Source: Rathayibacter sp. VKM Ac-2804
GTDB taxonomy: Bacteria; Actinomycetota; Actinomycetes; Actinomycetales; Microbacteriaceae
Assembly: GCF_009866655.1 (NCBI RefSeq)
Contig: NZ_CP047420.1
Location: forward strand, 3,844,001 to 3,908,000
DNA length: 64,000 nucleotides
Direction of reading: 5' to 3'
A model generated the notes under the pieces. The model did not search any database, was not told the DNA's origin, and saw nothing but the letters and a program-made list of their open reading frames with translations. This document shows positions 48,252 through 57,358 of the stretch, piece after piece. The position numbers were made by a program, and so were the translations under genes. How positions within the stretch are numbered: the stretch's first letter is position 1; every line of letters begins with the position of its first letter.

Positions 48252-48293
48252 CTCGGCTCCACCTCCGGCACGCAGAACCGCCGCAGGCCGACC

Positions 48294-48647
48294 ATGCTGG
48301 TCGAGTAGCCGCGGAACGCGGCGTATCGAGACCCACGTCCTCAGCACGGTGGATCTCGATACGGCCGCCATGCGGCCTACTCGATCAGCATGCAAGGGCC
48401 AGCCGCTCCACCGTCCTCCCGTCCGCGCAGGTGCCTCATGCTGGTCGAGCGGCCGCCGCGGGCGCCCTCATGCTGGTCGAGTAGCCGCCGCAGGCGGCGT
48501 ATCGAGACCCGCGTCCTCAGCACGGTGGATCTCGATACGGCCGCCATGCGGCCTACTCGATCAGCATGCAAGGGGCAGCCGCTCCCCCGTCCACGCAGCC
48601 GCCCTCATGCTGGTCGAGCAGCAGCCGGAGGCGGCGTATCGAGATCC
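48294..48647. repeat. Family A repeat field (two near-identical composite palindromes plus single units)
   Basis: The gene-free stretch 48252-48727 contains palindromes at 48294-48392 and 48470-48568, a partial unit at 48438-48468 and a forward unit at 48607-48647. The two palindromes share their spacer (CGTCCTCAGCACGGTGGATC), so one was copied from the other. The remaining 80 bases lead into the 18-codon frame. Confidence 0.88.
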
Positions 48648-48727
48648 GCCGACCCGCACACAGCCTCTTGCCAGGAACGCCGTCGACCCGCTACGGTCGA
48701 CGAACGCCACCACGAAAGGAGCCGACC

Positions 48728-48784
48728 ATGACGCACGCACCGCACTTCACCACCGCCGGCTTCTTCGGCGCCCTCTCCGACTGA
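48728..48784 (+). CDS. Putative micropeptide (18 aa)
   Basis: The frame encodes MTHAPHFTTAGFFGALSD. GAAAGGAG ends 7 bases upstream of the ATG, a near-ideal ribosome-binding site. The peptide is His- and Phe-rich and not clearly membrane-spanning. The frame is too short for codon statistics, so the evidence is the site and the similar arrangement of two other tiny frames nearby (56388 and 57305). Function unknown. Confidence 0.4.
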   Translation: MTHAPHFTTAGFFGALSD

Positions 48785-49029: not shown

Positions 49030-49248
49030 GTGAACACCGCAGCGACACTCGTCGCCCGCCTCCCCCGACCCCGCACCGCCCGCCTGCTCGACCGCCTCGC
49101 CCTCCGCGCGGGCATCGCCCTCGTGGCGTGGAGCACCCGGGAGCGCCGCCTCCCGCCCACCCACGCGGAGGTCACCGTCCTCCGCCACGAGCGCGCCGCC
49201 CTCGAGGACCGCGAGCGCCGCACCGCACTCCAGCGCATCCCGCGCTGA
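49030..49248 (+). CDS. Small basic hypothetical protein (72 aa)
   Basis: A 72-residue protein from GTG 49030 with GAAGGA upstream. It is Arg- and Leu-rich, with one amphipathic or weakly hydrophobic stretch (RLALRAGIALVAWSTR) and a charged C-terminal helix. Third codon positions are almost all G or C, as in the genes around it. It is followed by a family B hairpin 12 bases after the stop. I do not recognise the family. Confidence 0.65.
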   Translation: MNTAATLVARLPRPRTARLLDRLALRAGIALVAWSTRERRLPPTHAEVTVLRHERAALEDRERRTALQRIPR

Positions 49249-49260
49249 CCCCACCCACAA

Positions 49261-49304
49261 CGCAGAAGTCGCGGTAGTCGAACGCGACTACCGCGACTTC
49301 TGCG
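49261..49304. repeat. Family B hairpin repeat, copy 2 (perfect 20-bp arms)
   Basis: CGCAGAAGTCGCGGTAGTCG is mirrored exactly at 49285-49304 around a 4-base loop. It lies between the convergent ends of the 72-residue gene and the first secreted repeat protein, where it may act as a bidirectional terminator. Confidence 0.85.
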
Positions 49305-49320
49305 TCCTGAGCCGAGCGGC

Positions 49321-50754
49321 CTACAGCTGCTGGTCGAACACCTTCGCCCTCCGAAGCGCGTCGTCGAACCCGAAGCCCAGCACGCCCTCGTACTCCCAGA
49401 CCTCCAGTCGATCGCCGGGATCCACACCGTCGATGAGGAAGGTCGTCTCCGCGTCCTCGGTCGACTTCGAGACGCCAGCGACGCCGCGGGCATCGTTCTC
49501 CCGCATCTCGGCGACGGGCTTCCCGCCGACCACGACCACGAAGCGCCGATCCGACTCGACGATGGCATCAGGCAGGGTCACCAGAGCACGACCGCCCGAG
49601 ATCGACGCCTTCACGAACGTCGGCTCCGCCGGGGCGGGCGCGGGAGGCGCAGGCGGCGTTGCCGTCAGAACCTGGTCGAGCAGCTTCTCCTTGCGGAGGG
49701 CCGGATCGCGCGAGTCGTACCACGTGCCCTCGTACTCCCAGACCTCCAGGTGCTCACCGGGGGTCACCGTGCTGAACTCGAACAGCTTCGCGTCGCCCTC
49801 GCGCCACTCGTTCACCGGCCCGTACGCCGCGTCCCCCTGGATCTCTCCGAGGTCCCTTCCGCCGGTGGAGACCACCAGCCGCTTGTTCGTCCGGAGGACC
49901 TCATCGGGCACGGACAGCACGGCGTTCCCGTTCACCAGGGACACCGCCATGCCCGGCTTCTCGCCGACCTGCTGGTCGAACAGCTTCGCGATCCGCTTGA
50001 CGTCCTCCACGCCGAAGTCGAACCCTGCTCCCTCGTACTCGGAGACCTCCACCCGACTGCCGGGCTTCACACCGAGGAGCTGGATCCGTGTCCGGTCGCC
50101 GTCGATCCGCTTGCTGCCGAGGAACGTGGTCCTCCCGTCCTGGCCGCCGCCGATGAAGGTCTTCCCGCCGTAGCTCTGACCGACCTCCACCCCGTCGGCC
50201 CGGAACACGAGCCTCCTCTGCGCCGCGAAGACGCCGGTGGGCACGCTCACCACCGCGAAGCCGTCCTCGAACGACGCCGTCAGTCCCGACTCGACCGGAG
50301 CGTCCGACGCCCGGACGTCGGCCAGCTTCTTGATCCAGGGGGCCTCATCCACGTCATCGCCCAGCGATCCCTCGAGTTGGAAGACCCCCAGCCGCTCACC
50401 AGGCTGGGCGTCTCCGAACTCGACCTTCATCCGGCCGTCCAGCGCGTAGTACGGCCTGCCGCCGACGACGACGCCGTTCTGGATCTGACCGAGGACCCTC
50501 TCCCCGGCGCGGACCATGAGCCACGTGTCCGACGAGGAGATCTCACCGGGGAGGCTCACGATCACGTGGCCGTTCACGAGGGACGCCGTCACAGCCGAGC
50601 TCGGCGCAGGAGCGGGCACGGCCGGCGCAGCCGCGGACCGGGAGGCCCCGGCCCCGCCTCGGTCGGCCGGTGCGGCCGTCGCCGGCGTCGCCGACAGCAG
50701 GCCGACCAGGGCGGTCGCGGCGACGCAGGCCGCCAGGGTGCGCGTGCTTCTCAT
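49321..50754 (-). CDS. Secreted protein with four copies of an unrecognised domain
   Basis: A 477-residue exported protein. A Sec signal (MRSTRTLAACVAATALVGLL, cleavage near ATA-AP) is followed by an Ala/Pro-rich linker and four domains of about 95 residues starting near residues 55, 158, 268 and 382. Each domain runs: V-T-A-S plus GxAVVSVP, a KRLVV-x-x-GG strand, then PGxRLEVWEYEG and a closing (F/L)-L-DQ. The last ends at the C-terminus with KVFDQQL. There is no membrane anchor or sortase motif. Two similar genes follow at 51104 and 52690 and a short one at 56556. Function unknown; a surface or binding role is a guess. Confidence 0.85.
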   Translation of the reverse strand: MRSTRTLAACVAATALVGLLSATPATAAPADRGGAGASRSAAAPAVPAPAPSSAVTASLVNGHVIVSLPGEISSSDTWLMVRAGERVLGQIQNGVVVGGRPYYALDGRMKVEFGDAQPGERLGVFQLEGSLGDDVDEAPWIKKLADVRASDAPVESGLTASFEDGFAVVSVPTGVFAAQRRLVFRADGVEVGQSYGGKTFIGGGQDGRTTFLGSKRIDGDRTRIQLLGVKPGSRVEVSEYEGAGFDFGVEDVKRIAKLFDQQVGEKPGMAVSLVNGNAVLSVPDEVLRTNKRLVVSTGGRDLGEIQGDAAYGPVNEWREGDAKLFEFSTVTPGEHLEVWEYEGTWYDSRDPALRKEKLLDQVLTATPPAPPAPAPAEPTFVKASISGGRALVTLPDAIVESDRRFVVVVGGKPVAEMRENDARGVAGVSKSTEDAETTFLIDGVDPGDRLEVWEYEGVLGFGFDDALRRAKVFDQQL

Positions 50755-50907
50755 GGAATTCCTCTCTCACTGCGACCGGCGACGACGAAGCGGCACCTTC
50801 TGGGGCGGCCTCGGCCGGTCACGAGGAGCCATTGTGTTCGAGGCGCACCGCACCCCTTCTCCTCCTGTCGCGCAGTGCGGCATGCCCGCCTGACCCGCTC
50901 GAGACGC

Positions 50908-51007
50908 CGGAAGTCGCGGTGGTCACTCCCGAGTACCGCGGCTTCTGCGGAGTCGATGCCACGACGCAGAAGTTGCGGTAGTCGCATTCGACTACCGCAA
51001 CTCCTGG
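50908..51007. repeat. Family B hairpin repeats, copies 3 and 4
   Basis: Copies at 50908-50947 and 50966-51007 sit in the 349-base gap 50755-51103 between two secreted-protein genes. Copy 4 keeps GAAGTTGCGGTAGTCG and its mirror; copy 3 is more decayed. Apart from these I see nothing else in the gap. Confidence 0.8.
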
Positions 51008-51103
51008 CACTGAACCGCTTCTCATCGACGACCGCCGAACGAGCGGTCGACGGGGCCGGCGCAGAGGTGGGCGCCGCGCTCGGGCCCGGTGCAGACCCGC
51101 TGT

Positions 51104-52462
51104 CTACAGCTTCTTCTCGAACAGGTCCCGCCGTGTCCCCTCCTGATCAGCGCCGGAACCATCGACATCCACAGCAGTGACCTTCACCAGATCGCCCGGC
51201 TCCGCTTCGAGCTTGAGCAGCATCTGCTCACCCTCGTGATACGCCGTCCGAACACCACGGTCGACACCAGCGCGCAGACCGTTCAGGCCGTTCGCGAACT
51301 CGGCACCCTTCACACCGTTCACCCAGATCGTCACCCGCTTCTCGGGAACGGCGAGCGCCTTCGAGATCCGCACGACCGCTCGCTGATCCTCATACGACAC
51401 CGACGCCACCGGACCGTCCTGAGGGTGCATCAACCCCTCGAACAGCACCGGATCCGCACCGCCCCGATCAGCAGCAGTCCCGGCGACATCGGCCAGAGTG
51501 ACCTTCACCTGATCACCCAGCTCCGCCTCGACCTTGATCACCAGCCGATCGCCCTTGTCAGAGGCCGCCCAGACACCGGCTCCCAGACCGTTCATGCCGT
51601 TCACGACGTCCGCGGTCTTCACGCCGTTCACCCAGACATCCACCCGCTTCTCGGGAGACAGGATCGCCTTCGGCAGAGAGATGACCGCCCGATCCTCCTC
51701 GTACGACGCCGTCACCAGCGGAGCACCCGCAGGCGCGTCCTTCGACGGGGTCGGAGCGGGGGTCTCGGTCGTCGGAGGAGGCGGCGCCGTCGTCGGAGTG
51801 GGCGGCGCGGTCGTCGGAGCGGGCGGCGCCGTCGTCGGCTCGGGCGCACCGAGCGTCCCGGCGAACAGCCTCTGCCGTCGGAGGGAGTCGTCGAATTCGG
51901 TGTCCAGTGATCCCAGGTACTCGGTGACCGCCACACGCTCACCGGGCTTCACACCGGGGATGTGGAAGGTCGTCCGACCGCCGACGGCATCGGCCGTCGT
52001 GCTCGCGACGCCCCGCGTCTCGTCGTCATGGATCTGAGCGACGAATCTGCCCTCGACGATGACCACGATCCGCTTGTCCGTCCGGTAGACGTCGTCGGAC
52101 AGCGTCACCAGGGCCTGATCGCCCGAGAGCGACACGTCCACGAACGACGACTGCGCGGGCGGTGCCGTCTCCGCAGCGGGCTCGACCGGCGCTACCGGCA
52201 GAGGCCGCCCGGGCAGGCGTGCATCCGGGCCACCCGGCTGCTGCGTGTCGGACATATCCGCCTCGCCGCGGTCGGCCTGCCCGGCCGGCACGTCCGTCAC
52301 GGACGGGCCGAGGAGTCCCGGGCTCGACCGGTCCGACTCCTCATGCTGGACGATGCCGCCGGCACCCCCGTCGAGCGGCTCGGCCATCGCCGGCGTCGCC
52401 GACAGCATCCCGAGCAGAGTGGTCGCGGCGAGACAGGCCGCCGCGGTGCGTGTGTTCTTCAT
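51104..52462 (-). CDS. Secreted protein with three unrecognised domains and a Pro/Thr linker
   Basis: A 452-residue exported protein. The signal (MKNTRTAAACLAATTLLGML) nearly matches that of the neighbouring genes. After a long polar linker come one canonical domain (FVDVSLSGDQALVTLSDDVY to LFAGTL), a threonine/proline linker (PTTAPPAPTTAPPTPTTAPP), and two divergent domains with matching VWVNGVK and GLNGL segments, ending LFEKKL. The linker resembles those of extracellular modular proteins. The ATG at 52462 begins the signal. Function unknown. Confidence 0.85.
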   Translation of the reverse strand: MKNTRTAAACLAATTLLGMLSATPAMAEPLDGGAGGIVQHEESDRSSPGLLGPSVTDVPAGQADRGEADMSDTQQPGGPDARLPGRPLPVAPVEPAAETAPPAQSSFVDVSLSGDQALVTLSDDVYRTDKRIVVIVEGRFVAQIHDDETRGVASTTADAVGGRTTFHIPGVKPGERVAVTEYLGSLDTEFDDSLRRQRLFAGTLGAPEPTTAPPAPTTAPPTPTTAPPPPTTETPAPTPSKDAPAGAPLVTASYEEDRAVISLPKAILSPEKRVDVWVNGVKTADVVNGMNGLGAGVWAASDKGDRLVIKVEAELGDQVKVTLADVAGTAADRGGADPVLFEGLMHPQDGPVASVSYEDQRAVVRISKALAVPEKRVTIWVNGVKGAEFANGLNGLRAGVDRGVRTAYHEGEQMLLKLEAEPGDLVKVTAVDVDGSGADQEGTRRDLFEKKL

Positions 52463-52689
52463 GGAGATTCCCTTCGATGAAGGCGACCAGCGAGACGGCA
52501 GCCCGTCCGGGAACGGCCACGGCTGGTCGCATCGAGACATTCTCATCTGGACCCACCGACGATCGCTTCGCTGTGGCGCGAGACGCACCCCCGCCATGGA
52601 GACGCCCGCGCGCAGAGGGTGCGGGCGTCTCCGCGACGACCGCACCCTCCGCGTCCCGCCCGACCGAGCCGGAGCCTCAGTCGAGTCGG

Positions 52690-53727
52690 CTAGAGCTGCT
52701 GGTCGACCAGCACGCCCTCCCGGAGGTCGGGGCTGAGGGGGTCGTTCAGCTCGCCGCCGTACTGCAGCACCTCCAGCCGGTCTCCGGGCTTCGCCTGGGT
52801 GTACTCGAACGACCTGTCACCGTCCTTGTTCGAGCTGCCGTCCTGCCCGTCGGCTCTCTCGCCCTGGATCTCCCCGCGGTACTGCCCATCGATGCGGACG
52901 ACGATCCGCTTGTTCGCATCGGTGAACTCAGAGGGGACGCGTACGACAGCGCGTCCGTTCTCGAACGACGCGGTCACCGGCGGCTTCTCACCCACCTTCT
53001 GGTCGAGGAGCTTCACCTTCCGGAACTCCGAACCGATCCCGTCGCCCAGATCTCCGCCGTACTCCCAGGCCTCCAGCCGCTCCCCGCGCGCGACCCCGCG
53101 CAGCGAGAACATCTTGTTCGTGCCCTCGTCCCACCGGATCACGCCGTCGTACGCCGTGTTCCCCATGATCTGAGTGATGGGTCGCCCGTCGGCGAAGAAC
53201 ACGATCCGCCTCCTCGCGGAGAGGTACTCCGCGGGCACGCCCACCACCGCTCGGCCGTCCACGAACGACGCCTGCACGCCCGGCAGGTCGATCCGCTTGC
53301 GGAGGAAGTGAGCGTCGTCGGCCGGGTCGGCCAGCGTTCCCAGGTACTCGGAGACCTGCACACGAGCCCCGGGCTTCGCGATCTCGAAGCGGTACTTCGC
53401 CTCGTCGTCCTGGATCACCGTGCTCACCGCCCCTCGGGCCTGACCGGCGAAGATCTGCCCGACCACCTCCCCGTCGGCGAGCACCACGTAACGGGTCCAC
53501 GCAGTGACCAGGGTGTCGGGCACCGTGACCGCGACCTCGCCGTCCTCGAAGTACGCGGTCACACCGGAGCTCTCCATCGGCCCGTAGGGCACTGCCTCGT
53601 CCGAAGGCGCACTCTGCGACGCGCCGACGTCGCCGGACAGCGGCGCCGCCAGGGCCGGCGTCGCCGTCAGCAGGCCAAACAGGGTCGTCGCGGCCACGCA
53701 GGCCGCCACAGTACGGGTGTTTCTCAT
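52690..53727 (-). CDS. Secreted protein with three copies of the unrecognised domain
   Basis: A 345-residue exported protein with signal MRNTRTVAACVAATTLFGLL and cleavage near ALA-AP. Three domains start near residues 55, 150 and 247. The third reads VTASFENGRAVVRVPSEF, later PGDRLEVLQYGGEL, and ends LVDQQL. The second and third are joined by LLDQKVGEKPP, almost the same as LFDQQVGEKPG in the four-domain protein, which points to recent domain shuffling. Function unknown. Confidence 0.85.
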   Translation of the reverse strand: MRNTRTVAACVAATTLFGLLTATPALAAPLSGDVGASQSAPSDEAVPYGPMESSGVTAYFEDGEVAVTVPDTLVTAWTRYVVLADGEVVGQIFAGQARGAVSTVIQDDEAKYRFEIAKPGARVQVSEYLGTLADPADDAHFLRKRIDLPGVQASFVDGRAVVGVPAEYLSARRRIVFFADGRPITQIMGNTAYDGVIRWDEGTNKMFSLRGVARGERLEAWEYGGDLGDGIGSEFRKVKLLDQKVGEKPPVTASFENGRAVVRVPSEFTDANKRIVVRIDGQYRGEIQGERADGQDGSSNKDGDRSFEYTQAKPGDRLEVLQYGGELNDPLSPDLREGVLVDQQL

Positions 53728-54000
53728 CGGGTTCCCTTTCCTCGATGCGACCAGCAGCGAAGGAGCGGCGCGTCTCGGAACGGCCGCAGCTGGTCGCGAC
53801 GAGACATCCTCACCTGGTTGTCTCGACGATCAGCCGGTCGTGGCGCGCCGTGCACGCTCCGCCGCTGGAAGGAGTCGGTCGTCCGGCCGACGGCCGCCGC
53901 GCCAGACAGTCGCTCACAGTCGCCGCACATATCGCTGAGTATCGTTCGGAGCGACACGGTCGTTCGGAACGGCACACTCGGAAGACATACGGAGGTCACC

Positions 54001-54537
54001 ATGAAGAACCAGTCCTCGACCGGCGCGTTCGGCGCCGGCAACCCCATCGACGGCATCTGGCAGGCGATGGAGCAGGCCCGCGCCGGCTTCGAGAAGCGCA
54101 CCGGCAGCCGCGTCGGCCGCGGCGACGTCCGCGCCGCCGTCCTCGCACTCCTCGCCGAGCAGCCGATGCACGGCTACCAGATCATCCACGAGATCGAGGA
54201 GCGCAGCGGCGGCAGCTGGAAGCCGAGCCCCGGCTCCGTCTACCCGACCCTGCAGCTGCTCGCCGACGAGGGCCTGATCGCCGCCGACGAGTCCAACGGC
54301 CGCAAGACCTACAGCCTCACCGACTCCGGTCGCGCGCAGGTCGCCGCCTCGGGCACCGACGCCCCCTGGTCCGAGTCCGACCAGGTCGACTTCGGCGCAC
54401 TGCCGAAGGCGGGCGTCGCACTCGCCCAGGCCGCCGCGCAGGTCGGCCGCTCGGGCACCCCGGCTCAGATCCGGCAGGCCGTCTCCGAACTCGAGGACGT
54501 GCGCCGACGCCTGTACGCGATCCTCGCGCAGGACTGA
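54001..54537 (+). CDS. PadR-family transcriptional regulator
   Basis: A 178-residue regulator with a winged helix in the middle: VRAAVLALLAEQPMHGYQII, then PSPGSVYPTLQLLADEGLI and GRKTYSLTDSG, which are classic PadR motifs. The roughly 35-residue N-terminal extension is unusual and glycine/aromatic-rich. It stands divergent from the secreted-protein genes and 5 bases before the ABC1-kinase gene, so it may control either. The upstream TATCGCTGAGTATCG repeat near 53930 is a possible operator. Confidence 0.9.
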   Translation: MKNQSSTGAFGAGNPIDGIWQAMEQARAGFEKRTGSRVGRGDVRAAVLALLAEQPMHGYQIIHEIEERSGGSWKPSPGSVYPTLQLLADEGLIAADESNGRKTYSLTDSGRAQVAASGTDAPWSESDQVDFGALPKAGVALAQAAAQVGRSGTPAQIRQAVSELEDVRRRLYAILAQD

Positions 54538-54542
54538 CCCGG

Positions 54543-56249
54543 GTGGCGCCGGTCCGCCCGGGTCTGACCGACCCGGGCCGCCGAGCCCGCAGCGACCAGC
54601 GTCGCTACCGCCGCATTCTGCGGTTCGCCTCCTGGCACCTCGCGGTGACCTGGTTCTTCGATCTGCTGCTGCCCCGCATCGGGCTGACGGCGGTCGCGCT
54701 GCGCACCCGCCCGCAGCGGATGCGGCGCTTCGCGCGCAGCTTCCACGTCCTGGCCGTCGACCTCGGCGGTCTGATGATCAAGGTGGGCCAGTTCATGTCG
54801 TCGCGCCTGGACGTCCTGCCGCCCGAGATCACCCGCGAGCTGGAGGGCCTCCAGGACGAGGTGCCTCCGGTGCCGTTCCCCCGGATCCGGGCCCTCGCCG
54901 AGTCCGAGCTGGGGACGACGCTCGCACGCGCCTACGCGGACGTCGACGAGACGCCCGTCGCCGCCGCCTCGCTCGGCCAGGCGCACCGCGCCCGGCTCTC
55001 CCCGGTGGACGCCGCCGACTCCGGGCACGAGAACGCCATCGTCAAGGTCCAGCGGCCCGGCATCGACGAGATCGTCGAGGTCGACCTCGCGGCGCTCCGG
55101 CGCATCGGCGGCTGGCTGACCCACGTGCGCCTCGTCTCCGACCGCGTCGACGCGCCCGCGCTGGTCGAGGAGTTCGCGGTCACGAGCCTCGAGGAGATCG
55201 ACTACCTGCGCGAGGCGGCCAACTCGGTGCGCTTCGCCGCCGACTTCGCCGGCGATCCCCGCGTCGCCGTCCCGGACGTGATCTGGGAGCGCTCGACCCG
55301 CAAGGTGCTCACCCTGCAGGACGTCACCGCGATCAAGATCACCGACGCCGAGGGTCTCGCCGCCGCCGGGATCGATCCGCGCGACGTCGCCCCGGTGTTC
55401 GCCGCGGTCATGTTCGACCAGCTCTTCACCAACGGCTGGTTCCACGCCGACCCGCACCCGGGCAACGTCTTCGTGACGCCGACCCCCGGCGGCGAGCTGC
55501 CCTGGCGGCTGACCTTCATCGACTTCGGGATGATGGGCGAGGTGCCGCCGTCGACGAGGGCGGGACTGCGCGCGATGCTGATCGCCGCCGCCTCGCGCGA
55601 CGGCAAGGGCCTCGTCGACGCGGCGCGCAACGTAGGGGTGCTGCTCCCCTCGGCCGACTCCCGCGAGCTCGAGCGCGCGATGACGCAGCTCTTCGCGCGC
55701 TTCGGCGGCATGGGCTTCGCCGAGCTGCGCGAGGTCGACCCGCGCGAGTTCCGCGACTTCGCGATCCAGTTCGGCGACGTGGTGCGCTCGCTGCCGTTCC
55801 AGCTGCCCGAGAACTTCCTGCTCATCATCCGGGCGATGTCGCTGACGTCGGGGGTGTGCAGCGCGCTCGATCCGGCGTTCAACCTCTGGGACTCGGTCGA
55901 GCCCTACGCGCAGCAGCTGATCCGGGAGGAGCGCGGCAACGTCGCGCAGGACGTGGGCCGGCAGGCGCTCGACACGCTCGGGCTCCTCGTGCGCCTGCCG
56001 CGGCGCCTGGACGAGCTGGCGACGACCCTCGAGGACGGGACGCTCGCGGTCACCGTGCCGACGGTAGAGCGCCGGCTGAACCGGCTCGAGGGGACGGTCC
56101 GGAGGATCGTCTCGGCGGTGCTCTTCGCCGGGCTGCTCATCGCGGGTGCGGTCGTCCGGGCCGACGACACCGTGTTCGGCACGGTGCTGATGGCGGTCTC
56201 CGCGCTGCCGCTGCTGCACGCGCTGTTCTCGCGCTCGCGCCTGCTCTGA
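54543..56249 (+). CDS. ABC1/UbiB (AarF) atypical kinase-like membrane protein
   Basis: A 568-residue protein starting at GTG 54543, 5 bases after the PadR stop. It carries the ABC1 signatures KVGQFMSSRLD, the Ala-rich loop AAASLGQAH, VKVQRPG (Lys), FHADPHPGNVF and FIDFGMMG (Asp). Two transmembrane helices close the C-terminus. UbiB-type proteins support synthesis or transport of isoprenoid lipids such as quinones through an unusual ATPase. In an actinobacterium that uses menaquinone the lipid target is unknown. PadR may control it, as they form one transcript. Confidence 0.9.
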   Translation: MAPVRPGLTDPGRRARSDQRRYRRILRFASWHLAVTWFFDLLLPRIGLTAVALRTRPQRMRRFARSFHVLAVDLGGLMIKVGQFMSSRLDVLPPEITRELEGLQDEVPPVPFPRIRALAESELGTTLARAYADVDETPVAAASLGQAHRARLSPVDAADSGHENAIVKVQRPGIDEIVEVDLAALRRIGGWLTHVRLVSDRVDAPALVEEFAVTSLEEIDYLREAANSVRFAADFAGDPRVAVPDVIWERSTRKVLTLQDVTAIKITDAEGLAAAGIDPRDVAPVFAAVMFDQLFTNGWFHADPHPGNVFVTPTPGGELPWRLTFIDFGMMGEVPPSTRAGLRAMLIAAASRDGKGLVDAARNVGVLLPSADSRELERAMTQLFARFGGMGFAELREVDPREFRDFAIQFGDVVRSLPFQLPENFLLIIRAMSLTSGVCSALDPAFNLWDSVEPYAQQLIREERGNVAQDVGRQALDTLGLLVRLPRRLDELATTLEDGTLAVTVPTVERRLNRLEGTVRRIVSAVLFAGLLIAGAVVRADDTVFGTVLMAVSALPLLHALFSRSRLL

Positions 56250-56387
56250 GGCACGCCCGCGACGGACCGGTTCCCGCCACATGGTCGGACTGCGCCGATT
56301 TGTGGAGGCCCGCTCGGACGAGGTCCACGGTGGGATCACGGTCGTTCACCGACGAACGCCCGACCAGGTCCGAGGAAGGGAGTCGTG

Positions 56388-56432
56388 ATGATCTTCGCAT
56401 TGATCGCCTATCTGATCTCGATCTTCGAGTGA
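56388..56432 (+). CDS. Putative hydrophobic micropeptide (14 aa)
   Basis: The frame encodes MIFALIAYLISIFE after GAGGAAGGGAG. Every residue between the start and the final Glu is hydrophobic or small, so it would insert in or lie on the membrane. A 12-bp hairpin (one mismatch) begins 14 bases after the stop. GTG 56385 in the same frame is an alternative start. Function unknown; a membrane micropeptide or leader are options. Confidence 0.45.
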   Translation: MIFALIAYLISIFE

Positions 56433-56445
56433 CCCGCCCGAGCGA

Positions 56446-56474
56446 TCGCGGCCACCCGCCCAGGGTGACCGCGA
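56446..56474 (+). terminator. Hairpin after the 14-codon frame
   Basis: TCGCGGCCACCC (56446-56457) pairs with 56463-56474 apart from one mismatch, around a 5-nt loop. It could terminate the micropeptide transcript or the converging secreted-protein transcript. Confidence 0.5.
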
Positions 56475-56555
56475 CCGGCCCGGCGTCCTCGCTGCAGTGC
56501 CGCAGCGCGCGACCCCCGCACGCCCTGCGACGGCGGGTCCAGGGACGAGCCGGGG

Positions 56556-57011
56556 TCAGTTGCCCCGCAGCTCCTCCTCGAGCAGCGGGTACCTCGCGGA
56601 CCTCGACCCGATCGGTTCGCCAGGACGACCGCCGATCACCGAGACCTCGAGGCGGTCGCCCGCCTTCGCCGGTCCCATCCGGAGGAAGACCCGGTCGCCG
56701 ATCGACCACCGGCTCGCGTAGTAGGCCGAGCCCGAGTAGGTCTCGCCGACGTACCGGTCGTTCACCAGCACGACGATCCGCGTCCTCGACCGGAGGAGTC
56801 CGGCGGACAGGTCGATCACCACGTCGCCGCCCTCCAGGTGAGCGTGGATCGAGTCGTCGACGTGCGACACGGACCCGCCCACGGGCGCGAGGTACGGATC
56901 CTGGGGCGTCGCTCCGGCGCCGGCCGCAGCAGCGGTCGCCGGTGTCGCGGACGCGAGGCCGAGGAGCGCTGAGGCGATCACGCCGATCGTCACGGTGCGC
57001 AGGAGCATCAT
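56556..57011 (-). CDS. Secreted single-domain member of the unrecognised domain family
   Basis: A 151-residue exported protein. The signal (MMLLRTVTIGVIASALLGLA, cleavage near ATA-AA) is followed by a short linker and one domain: IHAHLEGGDVVIDLSAGLLR, RIVVLVNDRYVGETY, then AGDRLEVSVIGG and a C-terminus YPLLEEELRGN. The strand order matches the domains in the genes at 49321-53727. AAAGG precedes tandem ATGs. It is the simplest form of the family and could show the ancestral unit. Confidence 0.8.
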   Translation of the reverse strand: MMLLRTVTIGVIASALLGLASATPATAAAAGAGATPQDPYLAPVGGSVSHVDDSIHAHLEGGDVVIDLSAGLLRSRTRIVVLVNDRYVGETYSGSAYYASRWSIGDRVFLRMGPAKAGDRLEVSVIGGRPGEPIGSRSARYPLLEEELRGN

Positions 57012-57304: not shown

Positions 57305-57358
57305 ATGATCCCCAACGCGCTCGTCGCGATCTTCATCGCCTTCTTCGGCTCGCGCTAG
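57305..57358 (+). CDS. Putative hydrophobic micropeptide (17 aa)
   Basis: The frame encodes MIPNALVAIFIAFFGSR. GAAAGGA ends 7 bases before the ATG. The middle is a run of aliphatic and Phe residues, with a C-terminal Arg, so membrane association is likely. A perfect 16-bp hairpin begins 23 bases after the stop, as expected of a complete small transcription unit. The 293-base stretch 57012-57304 before it contains no larger gene. Compare the peptide at 56388. Function unknown. Confidence 0.5.
   Translation: MIPNALVAIFIAFFGSR

Follow-up and report, generated by a model that had tools for sequence, protein, structure and literature searches.

Organization of the array

We analyzed a window of 64,000 nucleotides from the chromosome of the actinobacterium Rathayibacter sp. 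VKM Ac-2804 (family Microbacteriaceae; bases 3844001-3908000 of a single 4.09 Mb chromosome; all positions below are counted from the first base of the window) in which four genes, all on the minus strand, encode predicted secreted proteins built from tandem copies of an unrecognized domain of about 95 residues. Protein 1 (49321..50754, 477 aa) contains four domains (50308-50592, 49963-50283, 49663-49950 and 49324-49617), protein 2 (51104..52462, 452 aa) contains three (51848-52144, 51425-51715 and 51107-51406) that are connected by Pro/Thr-rich linkers, protein 3 (52690..53727, 345 aa) also contains three (53287-53565, 52990-53280 and 52693-52977), and protein 4 (56556..57011, 151 aa) contains one (56565-56849). 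The four genes and the counts of four, three, three and one domains had been proposed in a sequence-only reading of this DNA; the genes are real, with the position that it had assigned to each being the low (stop-codon) end, and the counts are borne out by a profile built from the 11 domains. The most likely start of gene 2 is the ATG at 52462, which marks the beginning of the shared signal peptide; the longest open reading frame (ORF) runs from 52645. When the entire chromosome was searched with the profile, and all 104 of the 104 first-look candidates were scored, exactly 11 copies were recovered, all of them in the array genes.

The domains are recognizably related to each other: 49 of the 55 possible pairs have Smith-Waterman z-scores above 4 (against 100 shuffles each), and domain 2 or 3 of protein 2 takes part in each of the remaining six (z of 0.6 to 2.6). 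Two residues are nearly invariant across 30 aligned domains, Arg-25 and Gly-66, the latter within a P-G-D turn (numbering of the first sequence), and crude propensities point to several strands as well as to a helix-like stretch close to the domain's end. The word LDQ, previously described as closing the domains, is found in similar form in proteins 1 and 3 (five of their seven domains) and is absent from proteins 2 and 4 (none of the four domains counted). Likewise, the linker word DQQVGEKP, thought to recur between proteins, is exact in protein 1 and takes the variant form DQKVGEKP in protein 3. In protein 2, the Thr/Pro stretch that links domains 1 and 2 (51743..51847, minus strand) is encoded by a 21-nt spaced repeat (repeat family D6) with four overlapping 42-nt copies. 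The GC content at third codon positions is 0.82-0.91 in the four array genes compared to 0.96-0.99 in three neighboring genes.

Export of all four proteins is predicted from their N-termini, which resemble export signals, with a hydrophobic segment (1.44-1.91) and an A-x-A motif at residue 27; later hydrophobicity maxima (0.69-1.22) remain below that of the N-terminal segment, and the mature parts are free of cysteine, with isoelectric points of 4.7-5.9. The signal peptides had been called near-identical, which holds approximately for proteins 1-3 (agreement at 19-22 of 28 residues) and does not extend to protein 4 (13-17 of 28). The similarity is apparent also at the DNA level: the minus-strand segments that cover the start and signal peptide of proteins 1 (50649..50767) and 3 (53622..53740) are copies of a 119-nt repeat, D2, with 75% and 73% identity, respectively, to the reference copy in gene 2 (52357..52475). 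Furthermore, a 24-bp element, promoter-like by position only, is located on the minus strand 5' of protein 2 (52522..52545) and, with one mismatch, 5' of protein 3 (53789..53812); these are the only two sites in the genome at three or fewer mismatches, and a reversed control has none. We infer that the shared start segments and the 24-bp element fit duplication of units together with their upstream region.

Distribution among relatives

Searching 5.8 billion proteins yielded five matches for protein 1, nine for the C-terminus of a protease that carries the domain (see below) and 24 for a profile of six proteins, these 24 including two window proteins and one of the protein 1 matches; the searches with protein 1 and with the six-protein profile scored only the 8000 candidates sharing the most words. 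All matches with an organism in the source name (3 of 5, 5 of 9 and 12 of 24, respectively) come from Rathayibacter. Within this genus, a whole-genome search (E 0.01) detects the domain family in 4 of 15 genomes, namely that analyzed here and those of strains VKM Ac-2760 (G007), VKM Ac-2857 (G010) and VKM Ac-2856 (G011). The ortholog of protein 1 in G007 is 85% identical, and the orthologs of protein 4 in G010 and G011 are 74-77% identical. G007 also contains a second stretch similar to protein 4 (L039:7832-8809); the ORF in which it lies has only part of the domain behind an unrelated front and is perhaps a decayed copy.

Among 398 genomes of the Microbacteriaceae, weak matches outside Rathayibacter were found in two other genera; one of them, in an ABC-transporter-like ORF (G305), was treated as noise, as were a long repetitive ORF (G172) and the only additions, marginal ones in three genomes (E of 4e-4 to 8e-4), that came from widening the search to 394 genomes of the class. 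At the family and class levels at most 12 candidates were scored per genome, and weak copies could therefore have escaped. When 84,980 species genomes, a set that may leave out genomes very close to the source, were scanned with protein 3, the result was 46 pattern-matched stretches, none encoding a relative, and the plasmid and phage collections contain no match to this protein.

Published reports place three of the carriers on plants: Tanacetum vulgare with A. fragariae is the source of VKM Ac-2760 (PMC7256256), and Brachypodium distachyon that of VKM Ac-2857 and VKM Ac-2856 (PMC7498432). The description of R. festucae names leaf galls of the nematode Anguina graminis as its source (PMC7256256). 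Against a strict link with nematodes, the same report mentions one R. festucae strain from a nematode-free plant, and another report mentions further R. festucae strains from leaf-mined plants (PMC9584284).

The domain on exported enzymes

Exported enzymes of more than one type carry the domain. Three of the four carrier genomes (G007, G010 and G011) encode trypsin-like proteases with two copies at the C-terminus, and all nine matches to the protease C-terminus are listed with PF00089 and have two copies of the domain. PF00089 was found by scanning P0010 (from G010) and P0018, and P0010 also has the H, D and S motifs.

A distant version of the domain is encoded 3' of a GDSL lipase/acylhydrolase domain in three genomes of another genus of Microbacteriaceae (PF13472, E of 2.7e-16, in the one lipase carrier scanned). 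Comparison of the family profile with a four-sequence profile of the lipase version gives a score of 41.8 over 67 columns, compared to a mean of 9.8 (standard deviation 2.0, maximum 15.5) for 60 column-shuffled decoys and to 13.6 for the reversed profile. In a GDSL lipase relative from genome G390 (L048), the first C-terminal domain is interrupted by a TAG codon.

Turnover of domains and rate of change

Shuffling of the domains, previously conjectured from the linker word, is backed by a comparison of 98 domains in 39 proteins, including the four window proteins and nine proteases, which speaks to the protein level rather than to DNA breakpoints. Judged from the protein sequences, relatives differ by whole domains. 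The first two domains of P0022 are 99% and 96% identical to those of protein 2, and the best matches shown for its domains 3 and 4 do not exceed 57%; P0025 contains a pair of 100% identical domains in place of the single, identical copy of P0035; and two domains of P0027 are 98% identical to each other. The gene of the array that adjoins the padR gene (see below) is of the protein 3 type in the window, of the protein 1 type in G007 and of the protein 2 type in G010 and G011.

The ratios of nonsynonymous to synonymous substitution rates (dN/dS), all of them single pairwise estimates without a statistical test, are 0.35 for protein 1 (G007) and 0.39 (G010) and 0.53 (G011) for protein 4, the clean ortholog pairs, values expected for genes under constraint; the range for 19 comparisons of seven neighboring genes is 0 to 0.22. 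Three further values, 0.95 for protein 1 in G010 and 0.76 and 0.48 for protein 2 in G010 and G011, respectively, were excluded because these pairs are not clean one-to-one relatives.

Comparison with known families and folds

That the domain matches no known family was the central claim of the sequence-only reading, and it survives the profile searches: Pfam, NCBIfam, PHROGs and PDB sequences provide no credible match. With the four proteins and 30 domains as queries, nothing in Pfam or NCBIfam comes near a shown cut-off, nothing in PHROGs falls below E of 0.011, and the PDB sequence searches gave weak matches only, none of which holds up. The lowest E-value (0.00087), for NCBIfam BimA, corresponds to a score of 18 bits, where the cut-off is 600, and falls in a Pro/Thr linker. 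The chagasin inhibitor family I42 (PF09394) touches one of the 30 domains at a nonsignificant E of 0.078. Relative P0009 is named "DUF4178 domain-containing" in UniRef, a name that finds no support, its ortholog in the window having no Pfam match at E of 10. In the literature, we found no paper with a title or opening of the abstract that describes this domain family.

A widened profile (A5) matched an RSL-type fucose lectin at E of 1e-4, a value obtained by adding up the three repeats of a chain in which three copies are joined. Taken singly, the lectin stretches have independent E-values of 13-14 in that chain and 28-30 in the next one, and single-copy lectin chains reach E of 0.39 or worse.

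Against the immunoglobulin (Ig)-like families Big_6 (PF17936) and fn3 (PF00041), the family profile scores 13.2 and 10.3, respectively, which is inside the range of 60 shuffled decoys (maxima of 14.4 and 13.0), and because these scores are no better than those of the decoys, we do not file the domain under either family. The two reference profiles comprise 28 of 30 fetched loci each, from relatives, 23 of the Big_6 loci coming from one genome. The positive control is weak: Big_6 and fn3, both known to be Ig-like, score only 19.8 against each other, so that a fold in common could easily escape this comparison. Between the lipase version and Big_6, the score is 21.5, over 16 columns and for a pair without decoys of its own.

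Neighboring genes and other features of the locus

Two plus-strand genes are interleaved with the array, a PadR-family regulator (54001..54537; PF03551, E of 2.9e-22), divergent from protein 3, and an ABC1/UbiB-like atypical kinase (54510..56249; PF03109, E of 8.2e-63; reading frame as translated, start provisional). Both had been identified from the sequence, and the identities stand; a tie to the array does not follow, as the pair is genus-wide and has its own conserved upstream block. The ABC1 gene is present in 15 of 15 Rathayibacter genomes, and padR adjoins it in all nine fetched loci of the 11 genomes that lack the family. The block 5' of padR is clear in six of these non-carriers and partial in a seventh; in the other four, one start was misread, one block was not captured and two were not fetched. 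The nine non-carrier loci (12-14 kb each) yielded no domain match better than E of 0.99 and do not contain the rhamnulokinase and lactate dehydrogenase genes that flank the array here. The PadR/ABC1 pair is old and probably unrelated to the family, with the secreted genes placed around it. A role of PadR as the array's own regulator is not favored, given that the upstream block is kept also in non-carriers; a regulatory link between PadR and the array is possible.

Several smaller features were recorded at the locus. A near-perfect palindrome of 46 nt (49260-49305) lies 3' of protein 1, which is preceded on its 5' side by a related but less perfect copy (50959-51006). One arm of the palindrome has 17 genomic sites at two or fewer mismatches, compared to none for the reversed control, and this recurrence makes it look like a repetitive extragenic palindromic (REP)-type repeat or a terminator. 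A cluster of short repeats (48278-48651) in the interval that separates the lactate dehydrogenase gene from the array matches the loci of G007, G010 and G011 in several registers, and a 72-residue plus-strand ORF (49030-49248) lies within a stretch conserved in the same three genomes. The micropeptides mentioned in the sequence-only reading correspond to two tiny ORFs of 18 (48728-48784) and 17 residues (57305-57358), each with an AAAGGA leader resembling a ribosome-binding site and a Phe-Phe-Gly sequence; their translation is putative. The former is intact in G007, G010 and G011, and the latter in G011.

Possible functions of the array

The interpretation that we tentatively favor, and that could well be correct, is that the four genes constitute a lineage-specific array of secreted, multivalent binding proteins. 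The architecture, distribution and differences in domain content can be read directly from sequence; the binding and its target we infer. In favor are the predicted export of the four window proteins with no other anchor, the placement of the domain on proteases and, in distant form, on lipases in the manner of accessory binding modules, the differences by whole domains between related proteins, and the faster change of proteins 1 and 4 than of neighboring genes. Under this interpretation, the domain would be a non-enzymatic extracellular module that fixes its carrier to a surface or a polymer. On a protease or lipase, it would keep the enzyme near its substrate, and in the stand-alone proteins the linked copies would provide avidity, such that these could be adhesins or proteins of a coat or matrix, with the turnover of domains retuning the binding. 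Members of the genus Rathayibacter occur on leaves and in nematode galls, and candidate ligands include surface glycans of the plant or nematode and the cell's own envelope. A bolder scenario, which we regard as somewhat unlikely, is that a new extracellular domain family has spread in the R. festucae group as a recombining cassette, with tandem genes exchanging, duplicating and dropping domains, strains differing in recognition, and the same domain being lent to a protease with the same target.

Several observations weigh against the binding interpretation. The LPxTG sortase-anchor motif is absent from the four window proteins, in which no surface anchor was found, an LPxTG-like string being present in one of the 39 scanned proteins, the protease P0011. 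No carbohydrate-binding family is recognized, CBM_2 (PF00553) touching one of the 30 domains at E of 0.014. The source genome has no match to a domain-bearing protease outside the array, the lipase link is distant and is based on three genomes of one genus, and the higher dN/dS can also reflect relaxed constraint.

Compatible with a binding role is the idea that the domain is a diverged Ig-like fold, akin to Big_6 and fn3, missed by ordinary profiles. The strands suggested by crude propensities, the designed Ig-like proteins among the weak PDB matches (E of 0.047 to 3.2) and the score of the lipase version against Big_6 would agree with such a fold, but the family profile itself does not exceed the decoys against either family; considering that the test is weak by its own control, we take this idea to be a serious possibility. 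Another explanation dispenses with an outside ligand, the repeats being spacers of structural proteins that form a coat or biofilm matrix by self-binding. Tandem identical domains, Pro/Thr linkers and a varying number of domains are typical of spacers or matrix proteins, and the lack of an anchor motif in the window proteins would fit as well; however, the domain is found also on proteases and, in its distant form, on lipases, where a terminal spacer makes little sense, and we consider this explanation unlikely.

The proteins might also be secreted inhibitors or effectors directed at the host, with each domain blocking an extracellular enzyme or sensor that belongs to the plant or to another microbe, and the turnover reflecting an arms race. 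Although the export signal, the raised dN/dS and the restricted occurrence within the genus (4 of 15 genomes) could be accounted for in this manner, the contact with the chagasin family is limited to the single domain mentioned above and the fusion to the bacterium's own hydrolases suggests targeting more than inhibition, so this possibility appears quite improbable. Finally, decoy or shield proteins against phages or competing bacteria, varying to escape recognition, could show the domain turnover and raised dN/dS seen in this exported array, but nothing specific favors them, protein 3 is unmatched in the phage and plasmid collections (no search of a defense-gene library was made), and we deem them very unlikely.

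If the proposal of multivalent binding proteins is true, it adds an unnamed extracellular module to the means by which Rathayibacter meets plant or nematode surfaces, the strain differences in domain content would be natural variants for dissecting what sets binding specificity, and proteins now only "hypothetical" in the source databases would gain a family assignment.

Comparison with known systems

The likeness to RSL-type fucose lectins is limited to the weak match of the widened profile and fails on single repeats. A broader resemblance is seen with the tandem Ig-like (Big_6 and fn3) proteins of Microbacteriaceae, which share repeats of 80-100 residues that are possibly strand-rich; however, many Big_6 and fn3 matches are located in open frames of more than 1000 residues, whereas here there are one to four domains per protein. 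The trypsin-like proteases (PF00089) of Rathayibacter carry two C-terminal copies of this very domain in R. festucae and related strains, and differ in that the window proteins have no protease domain.

Secreted hydrolases of actinobacteria illustrate the same general design, with C-terminal accessory modules, for example of the carbohydrate-binding CBM_2 type, that bind carbohydrates or surfaces. Unlike the CBM_2-type modules, the domain described here has no significant match to a carbohydrate-binding module profile and also forms stand-alone arrays without an enzyme. In common with such accessory modules, it is small and extracellular, is accompanied by Pro/Thr linkers, can be repeated and is located at the C-terminus of exported enzymes. 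The domain is, in this respect, a new family of a known kind.

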